This document shows positions 17,643 to 23,330 of a stretch of DNA of 64,000 nt, piece after piece. The notes under the pieces are model-generated. The model worked only from the letters and a program-made list of their open reading frames with translations. It did not search any database and was not told the origin of the DNA. Each line of letters opens with the position of its first letter. The stretch's first letter is position 1. The position numbers and the translations under genes are program-made. This DNA is from Candidatus Dormiibacter inghamiae (GTDB taxonomy: Bacteria > Chloroflexota > Dormibacteria > Dormibacterales > Dormibacteraceae), in the NCBI GenBank assembly GCA_016464825.1, contig JAEKNQ010000057.1, forward strand, positions 1 through 64,000, written 5' to 3'.

Positions 17643-17795
17643 TAGCATGGGCAACGCCCTGACGGGCAAGGGAAGCCGGTGTGAATCCGGCGCTGTCGCG
17701 CAACTGTCAGCGGGGAGCCCCGCCCAAGACGCCACTGGATGAAGATCTGGGAAGGCGGGCCGGGGCGGCGATCCGAAAGCCAGGAGACCTGACCG
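17643..17795 (+). promoter_or_regulatory. Cobalamin (adenosylcobalamin-type) riboswitch
   Basis: The conserved core is plain: GGGAAGCCGGTGTGAATCCG at about 17670-17689, GCGCAACTG, GCCACTGG (about 17731), TGGGAAGGCG (about 17748) and the B12 box AAAGCCAGGAGACCTG at about 17776-17791. Downstream, 17826-17858 can fold into a strong GC hairpin (GGCCGCC/GGCGGCC inside a GGGGA/TCCCC outer stem). A further GCGGC/GCCGC stem lies just before the AGGAGA ribosome site of the lipoprotein gene, so translational or Rho-dependent switching is likely. It should repress the following transporter operon when B12 is plentiful. Confidence 0.93.
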
Positions 17796-17890
17796 TCAGG
17801 GAGGGCAACCCGTCCGCGCGAAACGGTGGGGAGGCCGCCGGCGGCCGGCGTTCCCCGCGGCTGGGAGAGCGCCGCCAGGAGATCAGAAGC

Positions 17891-18382
17891 ATGCGCAAGC
17901 TGCTCATGGCCAGCGCGATACTGGCCGTCACCACTTTCGCCTGTGGGGCCGGCTCCGGTTCCGGCTCGCAACCCTCTTCCGGTCAGGCGACCTGTAAGGA
18001 CTCCCAGGCCCCGCACCGAGCCTATGTGGTAGTCGAACATATGTCAGGCAAGGTGGTGCAGGCCTGTGTAGGTTTCGAAGGCGATTCCATCAACGGCCCC
18101 AACCTGATGAAGAACAGTGGCGTCGAGTTCCGTACCACCAGCACTTCTCTGGGTCTGGGCATCTGCCAGGTCGACAACGAGCCTGCCCACTTCGACCAGT
18201 GCTTCCCCCCGGGCGCGCCCTACTGGGATCTGCTCCTCGACGTCAAGGGCCAGCCGGGTTGGCTGGAGTCGCCCACCGGCCTCGATCAGGTCCAGGTCGC
18301 GGATGGCGGCGCGATCGGCTGGCAGTACAGACCGCAGACGGGAAGCCCACCTGCTTTGCCGCCCCTGCCCAAGCGGAAGTAG
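17891..18382 (+). CDS. DUF4430 (transcobalamin C-terminal-like) lipoprotein
   Basis: The 163-residue protein begins MRKLLMASAILAVTTFAC, a lipoprotein signal with a weak lipobox and Cys18, followed by a Gly/Ser linker. The rest resembles DUF4430: VQACVGFEGDSINGPNLMKNSG, then CQVDNEP, GAPYWDLLLDVKGQPGW and VADGGAIGWQY, the pattern shared with the C-terminal domain of transcobalamin/intrinsic factor. As the first gene after a B12 riboswitch and directly ahead of an ECF transporter, it probably captures cobalamin or a precursor outside the membrane. The AGGAGA site at 17877 fixes the ATG. Its TAG overlaps the next GTG. Confidence 0.8.
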   Translation: MRKLLMASAILAVTTFACGAGSGSGSQPSSGQATCKDSQAPHRAYVVVEHMSGKVVQACVGFEGDSINGPNLMKNSGVEFRTTSTSLGLGICQVDNEPAHFDQCFPPGAPYWDLLLDVKGQPGWLESPTGLDQVQVADGGAIGWQYRPQTGSPPALPPLPKRK

Positions 18383-19233
18383 TGGTGGGCGGCCGGCTGC
18401 ATCCACGAGCGGTCGCCGCCTGGGCGTTGGCGTGCGTGGTACTGGCCCTGGCGACCAGCAACCCGCTCTACCGGGTGTTGGCGGCGGTCATCAGCCTGAC
18501 AGTGCTGATCCGGCTGGCCGGCTGGTGGCGGGTGCGCAGGCTGGTCCTGGCGGCCGGCATCCTGGCTGCCACCACCGCCCTGCTGAACGTGGTGGTCGCC
18601 CACGTCGGTGACACAGTGCTCTGGACGCTGCCAGGCTGGCTGCCTGGCCTTGGTGGTCCCTGGACTCTGGAAGCGCTCGCCTACGGGCTCTTCAGTGGTG
18701 TGGGCCTCATGGCCTGCCTCTTCGGCGCCGCCTCACTCACGCTGCTGCTGGAACCTGACGAGCTCATCGATGCCCTGCCGGGCTGGCTGGATAGGACGGG
18801 CGGGGCCCTCGCGATGACGCTGGGCCTCGCCGGCGCTCTGCGCTCGACAGTGGGTCAGGTGGTGGAGGGCCAAAGGCTGCGCGGTTGGCGCCTGCGCGGG
18901 CCCCGCTCCTGGGCCGAGATCACAGTGCCGGTGGTGCTGACGGCCGTCGAGGGCTCGATCCAGCTCGCCGAAGCCATGGAGGCGCGGGGTTACGGCGCCG
19001 GCCCGCGCAGCCGCTGGCAGCGGCCGGGCCTGAGCCCAGGCGACCGCGCGCTGGTGGCCGGTTCGGCGGCTGCGCTCGTTCTTTTCATCGCTGCCCGGCT
19101 TGGCGGCCGGACGGCTGAGTGGTACCCCTATCCCTCCTTGACCCTGCCTGCGTTGGAGCCACTGCCGCTTGCTGCGTTCCTGCTTCTGGCGCTTCCTCTG
19201 TTCCTATGGCCCGGGCGACCCTCCGCGGCCTGA
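18382..19233 (+). CDS. ECF transporter T component (EcfT/CbrV-like)
   Basis: The 283-residue membrane protein has five or more hydrophobic stretches (for example VVLALATSNPLYRVLAAVISL). The two EcfT coupling motifs lie in RLRGWRLRG and EAMEARGYGAG, the Ala-Arg-Gly signatures that bind the ATPase grooves. It joins the S component to the ATPases. The start is GTG 18382, overlapping the TAG of the lipoprotein gene; a second GTG follows at 18385. Longer upstream frames overlap the lipoprotein gene and are rejected. Its 3' end overlaps the A-component gene by 28 bp. Confidence 0.9.
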   Translation: MVGGRLHPRAVAAWALACVVLALATSNPLYRVLAAVISLTVLIRLAGWWRVRRLVLAAGILAATTALLNVVVAHVGDTVLWTLPGWLPGLGGPWTLEALAYGLFSGVGLMACLFGAASLTLLLEPDELIDALPGWLDRTGGALAMTLGLAGALRSTVGQVVEGQRLRGWRLRGPRSWAEITVPVVLTAVEGSIQLAEAMEARGYGAGPRSRWQRPGLSPGDRALVAGSAAALVLFIAARLGGRTAEWYPYPSLTLPALEPLPLAAFLLLALPLFLWPGRPSAA

Positions 19234-20600
19234 GCTACCAGTACCCTGCCGCAGCCGAGCTGGCGCTGCGGGCAGTGGACCTGGAACTCGACGCCGGTCT
19301 CACAGCGCTGGTCGGACCCTCCGGAGGTGGTAAGTCGACGCTCCTTCGGCTCCTCAACGGCTTGGTGCCGCACTTCCATGGCGGCCGGATCTCCGGCCAG
19401 GTGACTGTGGGCGGCCTTGATGTGCTGCGCACGCCCACTCGGCGCCTGGCCCGGGAAGTTGGCTTCGTCTTCCAGGACCCCGAGCTGCAGGCGGTGCGCT
19501 CCTGGGTCGAGCGGGAGGTGGCGTTCGGCTTGGAGAATGTGGCGGTCGCGGGGCCGGCCCTCCGCCAAGGCGTGGCGGAGGCGCTCGCGCGGGTGGGAGC
19601 GCTGCACTTGGCCGGCCGCCGGCTGGCGACGCTCTCCGGTGGTGAGCGACAGCGGGTGGCGCTCGCTTCGGCGCTGGCGCTGAGGCCCCAGCTGCTGGCG
19701 TTGGACGAGCCGACTTCGCAGCTCGATCAGGCGGGTACCGAGCTGGTGGGGGCAGCCTGTAAGGCACTGGCCGAAGAGGGTTTGGCGGTGGCCGTGGCAG
19801 AGCATCGCCTCGAGTGGCTGCGGCCGCTGGAGCAGCGCACGCTTCTGGTGGAAGGCGGCCGCGTCGAGGACTTGCAGCAGCCGGCTCTGGACCGATTCAC
19901 GGGTCTCGGACCGGCCGCCTCCCGAACGCCGGGGCGCCAGGGCAAGGAGGCTTGGGCCGTCCGTGGGGCCACGGTCGGGCCGGCGGGCCTGCCGCTGTTG
20001 CAGGACCTAGACCTGGCCGGGGCCACCGGTGAGGTGGTGGCGTTGACCGGTCCCAACGGCGGCGGCAAGACCACGCTGCTCCGGTTGCTGGCGGGGACGC
20101 TGCCGCCGCTATCCGGCGCGGTCAGCCGGGCGCCGGGCAGGGTCGCCTTCCTGCCTCAGAACCCAGCTGCGCTGCTCTACCGAGCCAGTGTCAGAGAGGA
20201 GCTGCGGGCGACGCTGGATCGGGCAGGTTCGGCCGAGCCGCCCGGGCAGGTCCTCGGCGAATTGGGGCTGCTCGGTGAGGCCGAACGCGATCCGCGGGAC
20301 CTCTCCAGCGGCCAGCGGCAGCGAGCAGCGATCGCAGCGGTGCTCGTTGGGTCGCCCCGGCTGGCGCTGCTCGACGAGCCAACCCGCGGTATGGACCGCT
20401 TAGCCCGCGTCGGGCTGGGGCGGCTGGTCGGTCGGCTGGCGGCCGCTGGCTCAGCGGTGATAATCGCCACGCACGACAGCCGACTGGTGGCGGAGCTCTG
20501 CGATAGGGTGCTGGTGGTGCAGGCTGGGTCAGTGCGCGAGCAGCCCGCGCTCGGCGCCGGTCGCAGCGCAGCGCCGGGACCGGCTGACGTGCTGGCATGA
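19206..20600 (+). CDS. ECF transporter fused double ATPase (EcfA/CbrU-like)
   Basis: The 464-residue protein carries two ABC ATPase domains in one chain. The first has GPSGGGKST (about 37-45) and LSGGERQRVALASAL with LLALDEPTSQLD. The second has GPNGGGKTT (about 282-290) and a variant signature LSSGQRQRAA with LALLDEPTRGMD. Most ECF systems use two separate EcfA genes; fused forms are typical of dedicated, vitamin-specific systems such as cobalamin ones. ATG 19206 begins the conserved ATLRGLSYQYP strand. It overlaps ecfT by 28 bp and the S gene by ATGA. Confidence 0.92.
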   Translation: MARATLRGLSYQYPAAAELALRAVDLELDAGLTALVGPSGGGKSTLLRLLNGLVPHFHGGRISGQVTVGGLDVLRTPTRRLAREVGFVFQDPELQAVRSWVEREVAFGLENVAVAGPALRQGVAEALARVGALHLAGRRLATLSGGERQRVALASALALRPQLLALDEPTSQLDQAGTELVGAACKALAEEGLAVAVAEHRLEWLRPLEQRTLLVEGGRVEDLQQPALDRFTGLGPAASRTPGRQGKEAWAVRGATVGPAGLPLLQDLDLAGATGEVVALTGPNGGGKTTLLRLLAGTLPPLSGAVSRAPGRVAFLPQNPAALLYRASVREELRATLDRAGSAEPPGQVLGELGLLGEAERDPRDLSSGQRQRAAIAAVLVGSPRLALLDEPTRGMDRLARVGLGRLVGRLAAAGSAVIIATHDSRLVAELCDRVLVVQAGSVREQPALGAGRSAAPGPADVLA

Positions 20601-21385
20601 GGCTCACCCTGAGCTCGCTTGGGGGGCTGGCGCTGTTCGGCTGGCCCTTTCTGGGCGGCGGCCTGCCCGCCGACACGGCGGCGGCGGGTATCGCCATCGC
20701 CGCGCTGGGGGCGCTGCTCCTGCTGGAGGTCGGCTTCCGGCGCCTGGACGCTCGCCAGGTGGCACTGCTGGCGGCGCTGGCTGCGCTGGACACCGCCTTC
20801 CGGCTTGCGATTCCCTCCGCCTCCGGCGTGGGCGGCTTCAGCCCCATCTTCTTCCTGGTCCTGCTCGCCGGCTTCGTGTTCGGGCCCTCCTACGGTTTTC
20901 TGTTGGGCGGCTTCACCATCCTCGTCTCCTCTCTGGCGGAGGGCGCAGTCGGGCCCTGGGTGCCCTACCAGATCTTCGCCACCGGCTGGGTGGGCGTCAG
21001 CGCCGGCATCGCCGGTCGCCTCTTGCCAGCCCGCTGGCGGCAGCAACGCTGGCCGGCGCTGATAGTGCTCGCCGCGGTCGGCGGGCTGGGCGGCTGGGCC
21101 TTCGGTGCTCTCATGGACATCCAGGTCTGGGTGGCTTTCTACAGCGGTCCCGGGCAGCTGGGCTGGGTGCCCGGCATGGCTGCCGGCGAAGCGCTCGCCC
21201 ACTTTGGCCGCTTCTACCTGCTCACCTCCCTGGCCTACGACACATTCCGAGCCGTGGGCAACGCCCTGATGGTCCTCCTGCTGGGAGTCCCTGTGCTGGT
21301 TGCGCTGAGACGGGTGCAGCGGCGGCTGAGATTTGAGATCGTGGAGAACTATGCAGCCTTCCACCTACCCGCTGATCGACCCTGA
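20597..21385 (+). CDS. ECF transporter substrate-binding (S) component, CbrT-like, probably cobalamin
   Basis: The 262-residue membrane protein has six or more hydrophobic segments. VALLAALAALDTAFRLA contains the small-residue AxxxA pattern by which S components contact EcfT, and GGFSPIFFLVLLAGFVFGP and PWVPYQIFATGWVGVSAG resemble CbrT-type proteins. B12 specificity is inferred mainly from the riboswitch upstream and the DUF4430 lipoprotein in the same operon. The ATG overlaps the ATPase stop (ATGA). Its last 35 bases overlap moeA. Confidence 0.82.
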   Translation: MRLTLSSLGGLALFGWPFLGGGLPADTAAAGIAIAALGALLLLEVGFRRLDARQVALLAALAALDTAFRLAIPSASGVGGFSPIFFLVLLAGFVFGPSYGFLLGGFTILVSSLAEGAVGPWVPYQIFATGWVGVSAGIAGRLLPARWRQQRWPALIVLAAVGGLGGWAFGALMDIQVWVAFYSGPGQLGWVPGMAAGEALAHFGRFYLLTSLAYDTFRAVGNALMVLLLGVPVLVALRRVQRRLRFEIVENYAAFHLPADRP

Positions 21386-22571
21386 CCAGGCACTCGCCCT
21401 GGTCCTTCACGAGGTTGCCGTACTGGGCACAGAGGAGCTGCCGCTGGCTGCCTGCCCGAACCGCGTGCTGGCTCAGGACCTGATCGCAGAGCAGGATCTG
21501 CCCGCTTTTTCCAGCAGCGCTGTGGACGGCTATGCGCTGCGCGCCGCCGATTCTGGCGGCCGTCTGCCGCTGGCCGGAGAGGCGGCGGCCGGCCGGCCGT
21601 TCCAGGGCAGCTTGCCGGAGGCGGCCGCCGCCAGGATCCTGACCGGCGGGGTGCTGCCCGAGGGCGCCGACACGGTGGTCATGCTGGAGGAGGTCCGAGC
21701 CGGCGCAGACTGGGTGGAGGTGCCGGCCGGGTTGAGGCCTGGCAGTAACTATCACCGTCCAGGGGCCGACCTCACCACCGGCACTCGCGTTCTCAGACGC
21801 GGAGAAGTGCTCGGGCCGGCGGAGCTCGGCCTGGCCGCCGCGCTCAACCGGCCGTCCCTGACCGTGCACCGGCACCCCCGCATCGCGCTCATGTCGACGG
21901 GGGACGAGCTGGTCCAGGTCGGCGGCAGGCTGGAACCCGGCCAGATCATCGACTCCAACCGCTGGGCGCTGCTGGCCGCGCTGCGCGAGGCCGGCGCTGA
22001 GGTGAGCCTGCTGCCAGCGGCTCCTGACGACCCGGCTCAGCTGCGCCGGCTGGTGCTGGGGGCGCTGAGCGAGCACGAGGTGCTGGTCACCTCGGGTGGT
22101 GTCTCGGTCGGCTCTCACGACCTCGTCAAGCCGCTCCTGGAATCGCTCGGCAAGGTGCACATCGGTAGGGTCAAGCTCAAGCCCGGCAAGCCCTTCACCT
22201 TTGCCACGCTGTCTCAGGGCCGGCTCGCCTTCGGCCTACCGGGCTTCCCAGTCAGCTCGCTAGTCACCTTCGAGGTCTTCGTGCGGCCGGCTCTGCGCCG
22301 GATGCAGGGATTCCGCGAGCTGCAGCGGCCGCGCCTGCCGGTCAGGCTCGACTTCGACGCCAAACCGGCGGTCGGCCGCACCGAGTACCACCGGGTGTCA
22401 CTGCGCCGGAAAGGCGACGAGCTGATCGCTCAGACGACAGGCTCCCAATCCTCGTCGCGGCTCTTGAGCCTGGTCGGAGCGCACGCGTTGGTGCGGATCC
22501 CGCCAGGCGACGAGCCAGTCCGGCGCGGCAGCCAGGTGGAAGCGCTGATCCTCAGCCTGCCGGCGGACTGA
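21351..22571 (+). CDS. moeA: Molybdopterin molybdenumtransferase MoeA
   Basis: From ATG 21351 the product has 406 residues, the usual MoeA length. SSSAVDGYALRAAD, GEAAAGRPFQG, RILTGGVLPEGADTVVMLEE, MSTGDELV, DSNRWALLAALREAG, TSGGVSVGSHD and LPGFPVSS cover all MoeA domains. It inserts molybdate into adenylylated molybdopterin. The start lies 35 bp inside the S-component gene, with a GGAG site, so it is translationally coupled to the B12 transport operon. No other molybdenum cofactor gene is nearby. It is convergent with vapC, 12 bp away. Confidence 0.95.
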   Translation: MQPSTYPLIDPDQALALVLHEVAVLGTEELPLAACPNRVLAQDLIAEQDLPAFSSSAVDGYALRAADSGGRLPLAGEAAAGRPFQGSLPEAAAARILTGGVLPEGADTVVMLEEVRAGADWVEVPAGLRPGSNYHRPGADLTTGTRVLRRGEVLGPAELGLAAALNRPSLTVHRHPRIALMSTGDELVQVGGRLEPGQIIDSNRWALLAALREAGAEVSLLPAAPDDPAQLRRLVLGALSEHEVLVTSGGVSVGSHDLVKPLLESLGKVHIGRVKLKPGKPFTFATLSQGRLAFGLPGFPVSSLVTFEVFVRPALRRMQGFRELQRPRLPVRLDFDAKPAVGRTEYHRVSLRRKGDELIAQTTGSQSSSRLLSLVGAHALVRIPPGDEPVRRGSQVEALILSLPAD

Positions 22572-22583
22572 GACTGCCCAGCA

Positions 22584-23006
22584 TCAGAGGTCAGCCGGCA
22601 GGAGGGTAAAGCTGCCCCCGTCGAGCGATCGCACAGTCCGGAAGTCGCGCTCGTCGAAGGTCAGGATGCGCCTGGTCCTGAACCGGTGGGCGAGGACGGC
22701 AACCGAGAGGTCGGCGAGGCCGAGATCGAGATCGAAATAGCGGTCGTGCAGCGCGAGGGCGAGCCGATGCTCCTCGACGCTCAACGACTCGACTTGGAGA
22801 CGGCCCATCGACAGGTCTTCGAGGAAACGGCGGCCCGCCTCCGGGCCGCCCCGCTGCCGCACCAGGTAGTCGACCTCAGCGGTCACCGGGGCGGGGATCA
22901 CGAGGCGCCCGGCCTCCGACTCCAGGACATGGCGGACCGCTCCATGGCGGGGGTCCTTCGAGTCGCCGAGGGCGACCACAGGGGCCGTGTCGACAATGAC
23001 CGTCAG
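22584..23006 (-). CDS. vapC: PIN-domain toxin, VapC family, probable CTG start
   Basis: The PIN domain reads TVIVDTAPVVALGDSKDPRH at its N-terminus, with the first catalytic Asp in IVDT, then PAPVTAEVDYLV (acidic residue 2) and DLGLADLSVAVLAHR plus LTFDERDF (residues 3 and 4). The first ordinary start, GTG 22979, would remove the first strand and first catalytic aspartate. The only in-frame candidate that keeps them is CTG 23006, which overlaps the vapB stop as CTGA. VapC toxins are RNases, often of tRNA. The toxin is preceded by its antitoxin in the usual order. Confidence 0.85.
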   Translation of the reverse strand: MTVIVDTAPVVALGDSKDPRHGAVRHVLESEAGRLVIPAPVTAEVDYLVRQRGGPEAGRRFLEDLSMGRLQVESLSVEEHRLALALHDRYFDLDLGLADLSVAVLAHRFRTRRILTFDERDFRTVRSLDGGSFTLLPADL

Positions 23007-23230
23007 CGGCCAAACCCCTTCAAGAGCTCCTGCTCTGGCATGTCGGCGACAGATGTCCCATCACCTTCCCAGGCTCCGGCCAGCGCAAAGTTCGAGTCGG
23101 CCTTGAGGTGGGCCTCGTAGGCGGCAATGGCCGTCCTGACGATCTCAGCCTGGCTCCTGCCGGCGCGCTCCGCGAGCCGGCGGAGCCGATCCACGTCGGC
23201 TTCCTGTAGGTAGAGGCTGGTCTTCTTCAC
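23003..23230 (-). CDS. vapB: Ribbon-helix-helix antitoxin, VapB family
   Basis: From GTG 23230 the product has 75 residues. KKTSLYLQEADVDRLRRLAERAGRSQAEIVRTAIAAY is a standard ribbon-helix-helix DNA-binding domain. The C-terminal tail (SNFALAGAWEGDG to LKGFGR) is the expected toxin-neutralising segment. The stop overlaps the vapC start. Two tandem 12-bp repeats lie directly before the start codon and are likely the autoregulatory operator. An upstream extension to 23278 reads through that operator and is rejected. Confidence 0.85.
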   Translation of the reverse strand: MKKTSLYLQEADVDRLRRLAERAGRSQAEIVRTAIAAYEAHLKADSNFALAGAWEGDGTSVADMPEQELLKGFGR

Positions 23231-23232
23231 GC

Positions 23233-23256
23233 TTGTAGGGTACCGTATAGGGCACC
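23233..23256. promoter_or_regulatory. Tandem 12-bp direct repeats upstream of vapBC (probable VapB operator)
   Basis: On the minus strand GGTGCCCTATAC is followed immediately by GGTACCCTACAA (9 of 12 identical), ending two bases before the GTG of vapB. TATAC within the first repeat resembles a -10 box, so the transcript may have a very short leader. Binding by the VapB dimer is inferred. Confidence 0.5.
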
Positions 23257-23330
23257 AGGTCGGCATCATCGCGCACACGCGTCAAATTTGAGGTGCGGAT
23301 CGTATCCTGCTCGGACTTACCGGCCTTCCG

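Follow-up and report, generated by a model that had tools for sequence, protein, structure and literature searches.

A lipoprotein with a predicted transcobalamin beta-domain fold, a putative corrinoid-capture partner of a CbrT-like importer in Dormibacterota

In a 64,000-nucleotide (nt) stretch of the genome of Candidatus Dormiibacter inghamiae (contig JAEKNQ010000057.1; hereafter referred to as the window), a cobalamin riboswitch precedes the genes for a predicted lipoprotein, P0005, and for an energy-coupling factor (ECF) importer with a CbrT-like S component. We propose that P0005, whose predicted fold is that of the beta domain of transcobalamin, is probably a corrinoid-capture protein that feeds this importer and that has been reduced from a two-part system. 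Transcobalamin consists of an alpha/alpha toroid and a beta domain; the substrate binder of an ECF importer is considered to be its membrane S component. The host is a soil bacterium with a genome of 3.09 Mb that is 92.5% complete. The features of the locus are as follows.

17669..17790, + strand: cobalamin riboswitch aptamer core (RF00174; Rfam cmscan 96.6 bits, E 8e-23)
17891..18382, + strand: lipoprotein P0005, 163 aa, predicted transcobalamin beta-domain fold (translation; AlphaFold; Foldseek and VIA matches)
18385..19233, + strand: EcfT (CbiQ-type) transmembrane coupling protein (PF02361, E 6e-8)
19206..20600, + strand: fused double ECF ATPase, EcfA-EcfA (PF00005, ABC_tran, in two stretches; best NCBIfam matches TIGR04520 and TIGR01166)
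20597..21385, + strand: S component, CbrT-like (PF12822, 31.8 bits against a cut-off of 30.7)
21351..22571, + strand: moeA (MoeA_N, MoCF_biosynth and MoeA_C domains)

Predicted fold and sequence features of the lipoprotein

AlphaFold returned a model of P0005 (27 rows) with a predicted local distance difference test (pLDDT) score of 84.7, a predicted template modelling (pTM) score of 0.75 and ten-residue means above 90 from residue 41 to 160. The model consists of strands at 42–49, 55–62 and 66–68, a helix at 69–76, and strands at 80–85, 88–94, 111–117, 124–126, 135–137 and 141–147, with a beta hairpin (80–94) following the helix. In a Foldseek search against the PDB, the 14 best rows were 3u7z and transcobalamin structures (E 5.8e-5 to 2.8e-3), and the next rows were ubiquitin complexes from E 0.11. 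VIA ranked bovine transcobalamin (Z 11.9; 97 residues, 2.5 A), haptocorrin (Z 11.4) and intrinsic factor (Z 11.2 and 11.0) highest, with 3u7z within the same range of 11.9 to 11.0 and the next other fold at Z 6.5. The alignments to the B12 carriers and 3u7z covered 96–102 residues at 2.3–2.7 A, with 12–18% identity to the animal carriers. The matched rows 5no0 and 5np4 show the beta domain of human transcobalamin by itself, without ligand and with cyanocobalamin, respectively. The initial annotation had likened P0005 to the C-terminal domain of transcobalamin, and this resemblance was borne out by AlphaFold, Foldseek and VIA; on a confident model, the lipoprotein is predicted to adopt the transcobalamin beta-domain fold.

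A hairpin after the helix is the mark of the transcobalamin-like clade and contacts B12 in transcobalamin (PMC1796856; this article, PMC5599065, PMC5997447 and PMC10608941 are cited here from excerpts of their texts). The human transcobalamin beta domain alone has been seen with cyanocobalamin in crystals (PMC5599065); in the same work, Bloch et al. found that the separate transcobalamin domains assemble only on cobalamin addition, and that their separate expression lowered the affinity.

The predicted identity of P0005 came from the fold, because structure prediction succeeded where sequence routes failed. P0005 had no match in Pfam or NCBIfam at E 5, and a profile search of the PDB with the beta family gave no match to E 10. 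PF14478 (DUF4430) matched nothing in the host genome, nor P0005 itself, the 35 aligned rows or 10 remote beta-bearing proteins; among the latter, the only Pfam match was one to Cobalamin_bind at E 0.19, in the toroid part of the protein at locus L131. The earlier description of P0005 as ‘DUF4430-like’ is thus upheld by fold, as seen with Foldseek and VIA, but not by sequence (0 of 35 rows).

By pattern, P0005 has a signal sequence with Cys18, and its translation contains exactly four later cysteines, at 35, 59, 92 and 104, as the initial annotation had stated. Residues C59, C92, P98, C104, W112 and W124 are invariant in 35/35 aligned rows. C35 is invariant in the 12 rows of the host's own family (f1), whereas in the rows of family f3 it is missing and a Cys stands after the domain; this pattern would be compatible with two disulfides. 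The alignment of own-family lipoproteins (A3) comprised these 12 rows; L033 was left out of alignment A1 because of a run of N inside its open reading frame (ORF), and L090 and L098 were left out of alignment A4. The candidate at L098 (Isosphaera) was rejected as a spurious family member, its ORF being unlike the family.

Lipid anchoring at the surface, also claimed initially, is suggested by the signal sequence with Cys18 but not by a canonical lipobox, that of the window protein being the relaxed TFAC. Among 51 rows tested, in which the window is included and several contigs are counted twice (fetched by two routes), 27 had a canonical lipobox. None was found in the nine rows of the alpha-bearing type (L051, L053 and L091–L097, of which L095 is cut upstream). 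Most, but not all, of the other beta proteins end in a hydrophobic segment with a basic tail, and LPxTG-like motifs occur in some alpha proteins.

The nearest named record found, the lipoprotein of Candidatus Dormiibacter spiritus (QHBT01000037.1), is 85% identical to P0005; the other 26 accepted loci of the same scan came from Dormiibacterota, Dormibacteraeota or Chloroflexi bacteria. The taxonomy used here sets this class inside a larger phylum, which agrees with the proposal to rank Dormibacterota as a class of Chloroflexota (PMC10608941).

The importer partner and the alpha half in relatives

The order of riboswitch, lipoprotein, EcfT, fused double EcfA and S component was found as first annotated and recurs in relatives, and the parts of an ECF transporter (EcfT, two ATPase domains and an S component) are complete. 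The genes had been called overlapping throughout, which applies to EcfT/EcfA (28 nt) and EcfA/S (4 nt) but not to the lipoprotein and EcfT genes; these abut with no clear overlap, although an in-frame GTG at 18382 is a possible EcfT start that would overlap the lipoprotein stop by one base. A profile of 25 of the 41 S rows (alignment A6), searched against the PDB, matched chain A of 6fnp, the ECF-CbrT entry, best (E 2.1e-6), followed by FolT (0.024). This chain, 182 aa long and named only ‘Membrane protein’, is by its length presumably CbrT. The S component did not match the CbiM model.

The aptamer scored 96.6 bits against a gathering threshold of 31.5, and no other Rfam family exceeded its gathering score in the window. 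A riboswitch lies upstream in 30 of the 31 non-truncated loci of the class that were scanned (window included), the 31st being cut by the start of the stretch, and in 7/13 further loci. A cobalamin-class riboswitch also precedes the alpha gene in 9/11 remote loci scanned; at L125 and L131 the scan found none over threshold. The predicted fold of the leader RNA did not exceed what its composition would give (z -0.74), and the scan found no terminator-like site between the aptamer and the start codon. At L043 (1724–2947; the same place as L163) and L079 (6263–7483), two lipoprotein genes stand in tandem with a riboswitch between them, only the second being downstream of it.

A survey of co-occurrence linked the lipoprotein to the S component. 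Of 61 genomes, the host's among them, 40 hold an S component; four of the 41 S loci are cut upstream, and the lipoprotein is in the cluster in 35 of the 37 others (window included). Among the 61 relatives, beta and S occur together in 39, beta only in four, S only in one and neither in 17. Across 301 genomes of the phylum, the corresponding numbers are 67, 5, 4 and 225, so that 67 of the 72 beta-bearing genomes also have S (Fisher 1e-55, which, like the other Fisher p-values, overstates the association because the genomes are related, partly incomplete and treated as independent). Four genomes, G144, G235, G249 and G263, have alpha and beta and gave no match in the S search; in two of them (L126 and L132), the EcfA profile matched nearby sequence only weakly and in part, and another type of importer may serve. 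Conversely, G111, G182 and G324 have S and a strong alpha and no beta match; their genomes are small (0.9–1.5 Mb), and their beta may have diverged or given way to another protein.

Families f2 and f3 of the same class carry, between the riboswitch and the lipoprotein gene, a gene encoding a secreted alpha/alpha toroid. SQHop_cyclase_C was matched at E 1 or better by all eight alpha proteins scanned (best 8.9e-9), and the alpha profile search hit squalene-hopene cyclase at E 1.7e-18. The AlphaFold model of alpha is moderate (pLDDT 62.8); its best 50 VIA matches are squalene-hopene cyclases and other toroids, without transcobalamin, which appears in Foldseek from rank 30 (E 4.5e-4). Alpha is thus predicted to be an alpha/alpha toroid, and we take it as the partner half of beta because of its position rather than a specific fold match. 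The alpha alignment (A2) contained eight of 13 ORFs, the others having over-long starts or repeats or being cut. A seemingly extra gene between EcfA and S in f3 was rejected, as it reflects only a late start call.

We counted as strong alpha a match to the toroid profile with E below 1e-20, a threshold set after the tables had been inspected. Strong matches occur in 12/12 genomes of f3, 4/8 of f2, 0/37 of f1 and 0/4 of f4. In f2, the toroid and beta occur in the same four genomes, and alpha accompanies beta in all 16 beta-bearing f2 and f3 genomes. No toroid gene was detected in the host genome; the 41 f1 and f4 genomes gave no strong match, and seven of them gave weak ones (E 1e-6 to 3e-4). 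In the 301 genomes, 72 have beta, 57 strong alpha and 54 both, and all 18 genomes with beta but without strong alpha belong to f1 (11) or f4 (7).

We also read 40 further stretches, six from f1 or f4 and 34 from elsewhere. Outside f1 and f4, alpha lies near beta in 33 of the 34, usually as a separate gene, and EcfT, EcfA or S is nearby in 27 of the 34. The toroid and beta share one ORF only at L141 (4151–6733) and L131 (5380–7800), in the opposite orders alpha-alpha-beta and beta-alpha-alpha, respectively, and adjoining S, EcfT and EcfA. In a tree of 75 beta domains, rooted at the midpoint for drawing only, the f1 and f4 rows form one group with support of 100/98 (three rows labelled ‘remote’ come from f1 genomes). 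Most simply, alpha would have been lost once and the anchor changed, the beta-only form being a probable reduction of a two-part system.

These distributions bear on whether P0005 could be a beta-grasp protein with some unrelated role, placed beside the importer by chance or shared regulation. The beta-grasp is a common fold and no family model matches P0005; yet the folds most similar to its own are those of B12 carriers and 3u7z (Z 11 against 6.5), it co-occurs with S in the 301 genomes, and alpha is nearby in nearly every stretch outside f1 and f4, so that a function unrelated to the importer is hard to credit.

Directly 3′ of the S gene in seven loci, the window included, is moeA, which in the window overlaps the S gene by 35 nt. 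It is probably co-transcribed with the S gene, which does not imply a part in B12 uptake. Further downstream on the - strand (22584–23278), two short adjoining ORFs resemble, by eye, a PIN-type toxin and a ribbon-helix-helix antitoxin.

Corrinoid metabolism and the proposed capture mechanism

The host genome encodes methylmalonyl-CoA mutase, MetH and another B12-binding protein; CbiC and CobS were not detected in it, and no FecCD permease exceeded the cut-off. Because the genome is incomplete, each of these absences is likely rather than certain. The host thus seems unable to make the vitamin, and finished cobalamin is its likeliest cargo because B12-dependent enzymes are present and CbiC and CobS undetected. 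CbiC was found in three of the 61 genomes, two without beta and S and one (G021) with both. In the same genomes, S and CobS occur together in three, S only in 37, CobS only in 16 and neither in five (p 7e-8); in the 34 genomes that are at least 90% complete, the numbers are 3, 21, 7 and 3 (p 0.002). S and CobS therefore nearly exclude each other.

Lipoprotein paralogues without S lie tail-to-tail with BtuC-BtuD-CobO-CobU-CobS-CobC in G029 and G002, with shorter salvage sets that reach contig ends in G033 and G008, and with CobO in G025 (loci L160, 9316–13758; L162, 483–4975; L161; L140; L159). At L159, a 2-phosphosulfolactate-phosphatase-like gene (PF04029) precedes the lipoprotein. At L056 (3885–7666; G010:C107), riboswitch, lipoprotein, S, CobT, CobS and CobU stand in a row, and neither EcfT nor EcfA was found there. 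The same genome, G010, has at L057 a complete EcfT-EcfA-S operon without a lipoprotein, so that a single ECF module might serve both S components.

Import of a ligand other than cobalamin under B12 control, for instance cobalt or an incomplete corrinoid such as cobinamide, would accord with the CbiQ-like EcfT and with the cobinamide-salvage genes beside the lipoprotein and S at L056; CbrT, moreover, rescues growth on cobalamin as well as on cobinamide (PMC5997447). Against this, the matches of the S component are to ECF_trnsprt and CbrT, with none to a CbiM model, and P0005 is predicted to fold like a corrinoid binder. Neither cobalt nor cobinamide is expected to yield cobalamin in the host, because CobS and CbiC are undetected, and we regard such a ligand as quite improbable there. 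In relatives with CobS, cobinamide is a possible cargo.

We favour corrinoid capture by P0005, which could proceed as follows. When B12 is scarce, the riboswitch would let the operon be made. The lipoprotein, tethered at the outer face of the membrane, would bind cobalamin or another corrinoid on its hairpin face; the CbrT-like S component would receive the corrinoid, topple, dock on EcfT and release its cargo inside, with the energy for release coming from EcfT and the fused ATPase. In alpha-bearing relatives, alpha and beta may sandwich the corrinoid as animal transcobalamin does, and f1 and f4 would have lost alpha, a lipid-type anchor replacing a C-terminal transmembrane or cell-wall-type anchor. 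Corrinoid binding, hand-over to S and lipidation are all predicted steps. More tentatively, and with appreciable doubt, we suggest that in the beta-only lineages S takes over the role of the missing alpha in a beta-corrinoid-S sandwich, the lipoprotein handing a half-buried corrinoid straight to it. If so, an importer subunit would complete a split transcobalamin, capture and translocation would merge into a single relay, and in some ECF importers the vitamin would first be bound by a protein other than the S component.

Alternatively, the lipoprotein may be an accessory or a leftover that binds no corrinoid tightly and stabilises or docks S, or is drifting. Alpha is undetected in the host genome and its family, and within that family the lipoprotein is less conserved (41–50% identity to P0005, the same-genus genome aside) than the S component (48–64%, mostly 57% or more). 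Furthermore, L055 and L057, from one genus, have riboswitch-EcfT-EcfA-S without a lipoprotein in cis. However, the genomes of these two loci keep a lipoprotein elsewhere behind its own riboswitch, alone at L142 and at L056. The six residues invariant in every aligned row and the persistence through two families of beta-only forms, which group in one clade, also speak against drift, and we consider an accessory or leftover role unlikely.

Several further observations weigh, together with the two loci lacking the lipoprotein in cis and the overstated p-values, against capture by P0005. Because the separately expressed transcobalamin domains had lowered affinity, affinity without alpha should fall. 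The lipobox of the window protein is weak, and by sequence the beta family matched neither DUF4430 nor a solved structure. S was undetected in five beta-bearing genomes of the 301. S itself is present in 14/34 remote stretches, the link being partly genome-level elsewhere, and 7/34 have no nearby ECF gene with a good score, some at contig ends. In the host, there is one FecCD-like match below the cut-off.

Relation to known B12 carriers and importers

The kind of capture system described here is already known as a prediction, having been proposed in 2007 (PMC1796856). Burroughs, Balaji, Iyer and Aravind described prokaryotic transcobalamin-like SLBB beta-grasp domains, stand-alone or toroid-fused and mostly secreted, several of them cell-wall anchored by Gram-positive anchors, whose genes are generally in predicted operons with a CbiO-like ATPase and a CbiQ-like membrane protein (PMC1796856). 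The hosts, named as low-GC Gram-positives, planctomycetes and, less often, euryarchaea, usually lack key enzymes of B12 synthesis, and scavenging of B12 or its precursors was proposed (PMC1796856). P0005 shares with these proteins the hairpin after the helix, predicted secretion (a signal sequence with a relaxed lipobox) and, as a usual trait, the CbiO/CbiQ-like operon. Unlike the excerpted report, the present data come from Dormibacterota and the phylum around it; they include a beta-only form with a predicted lipid anchor, adjacent but mostly separate genes for alpha and beta, an identified riboswitch and S component, and a lone pairing with S and CobT-CobS-CobU.

In a full-text search of the open-licence literature, PMC1796856 was, by title and abstract, the only article on bacteria under ‘transcobalamin-like’, and none joined this term with ‘energy-coupling factor’. 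By title and the start of the abstract, no open-licence DUF4430 article dealt with bacterial B12 uptake, and ‘Dormibacter’ with ‘cobalamin’ gave a single mention, about Dehalococcoidales. Within the reach of these searches, several features are new: the occurrence across Dormibacterota and its wider phylum, the beta-only form with a predicted lipid anchor, the division of alpha and beta between genes in most cases, the partnership with the S component and the near exclusion between S and CobS.

BtuFCD combines extracytoplasmic capture with an ABC importer for B12, and BtuF has another fold than the beta domain of the lipoprotein. Extracytoplasmic capture would be common to the two systems, but the host has no FecCD permease over the cut-off. 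ECF-CbrT of Lactobacillus delbrueckii (PDB 6FNP), the best PDB match of the S profile, is likewise an ECF importer; the window system differs from it in its fused ATPases and in the added riboswitch and putative capture lipoprotein. In the excerpted main text on ECF-CbrT, which also treats BtuF, CbrT itself is called a substrate-binding protein and the word ‘lipoprotein’ is absent (PMC5997447). The top Foldseek match, 3u7z (Ruminococcus gnavus RUMGNA_00854; E 5.8e-5, template modelling score 0.78 by target), is titled a putative metal binding protein.

Animal transcobalamin, intrinsic factor and haptocorrin have the same beta fold as that predicted here (Z 11–12), and many relatives of the host encode an alpha/alpha toroid nearby. 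The animal carriers hold both domains in one chain, whereas the window protein is beta alone, predicted to be tethered, beside an importer. Because a putative capture protein that is predicted to fold like the human B12 carriers is conserved here as a separate gene product, substrate hand-over to S can be tested directly. The phylum, moreover, offers a natural series, with alpha and beta in one chain, split, or beta alone, which bears on how two-domain carriers such as transcobalamin are built or dismantled and on what beta alone can do.

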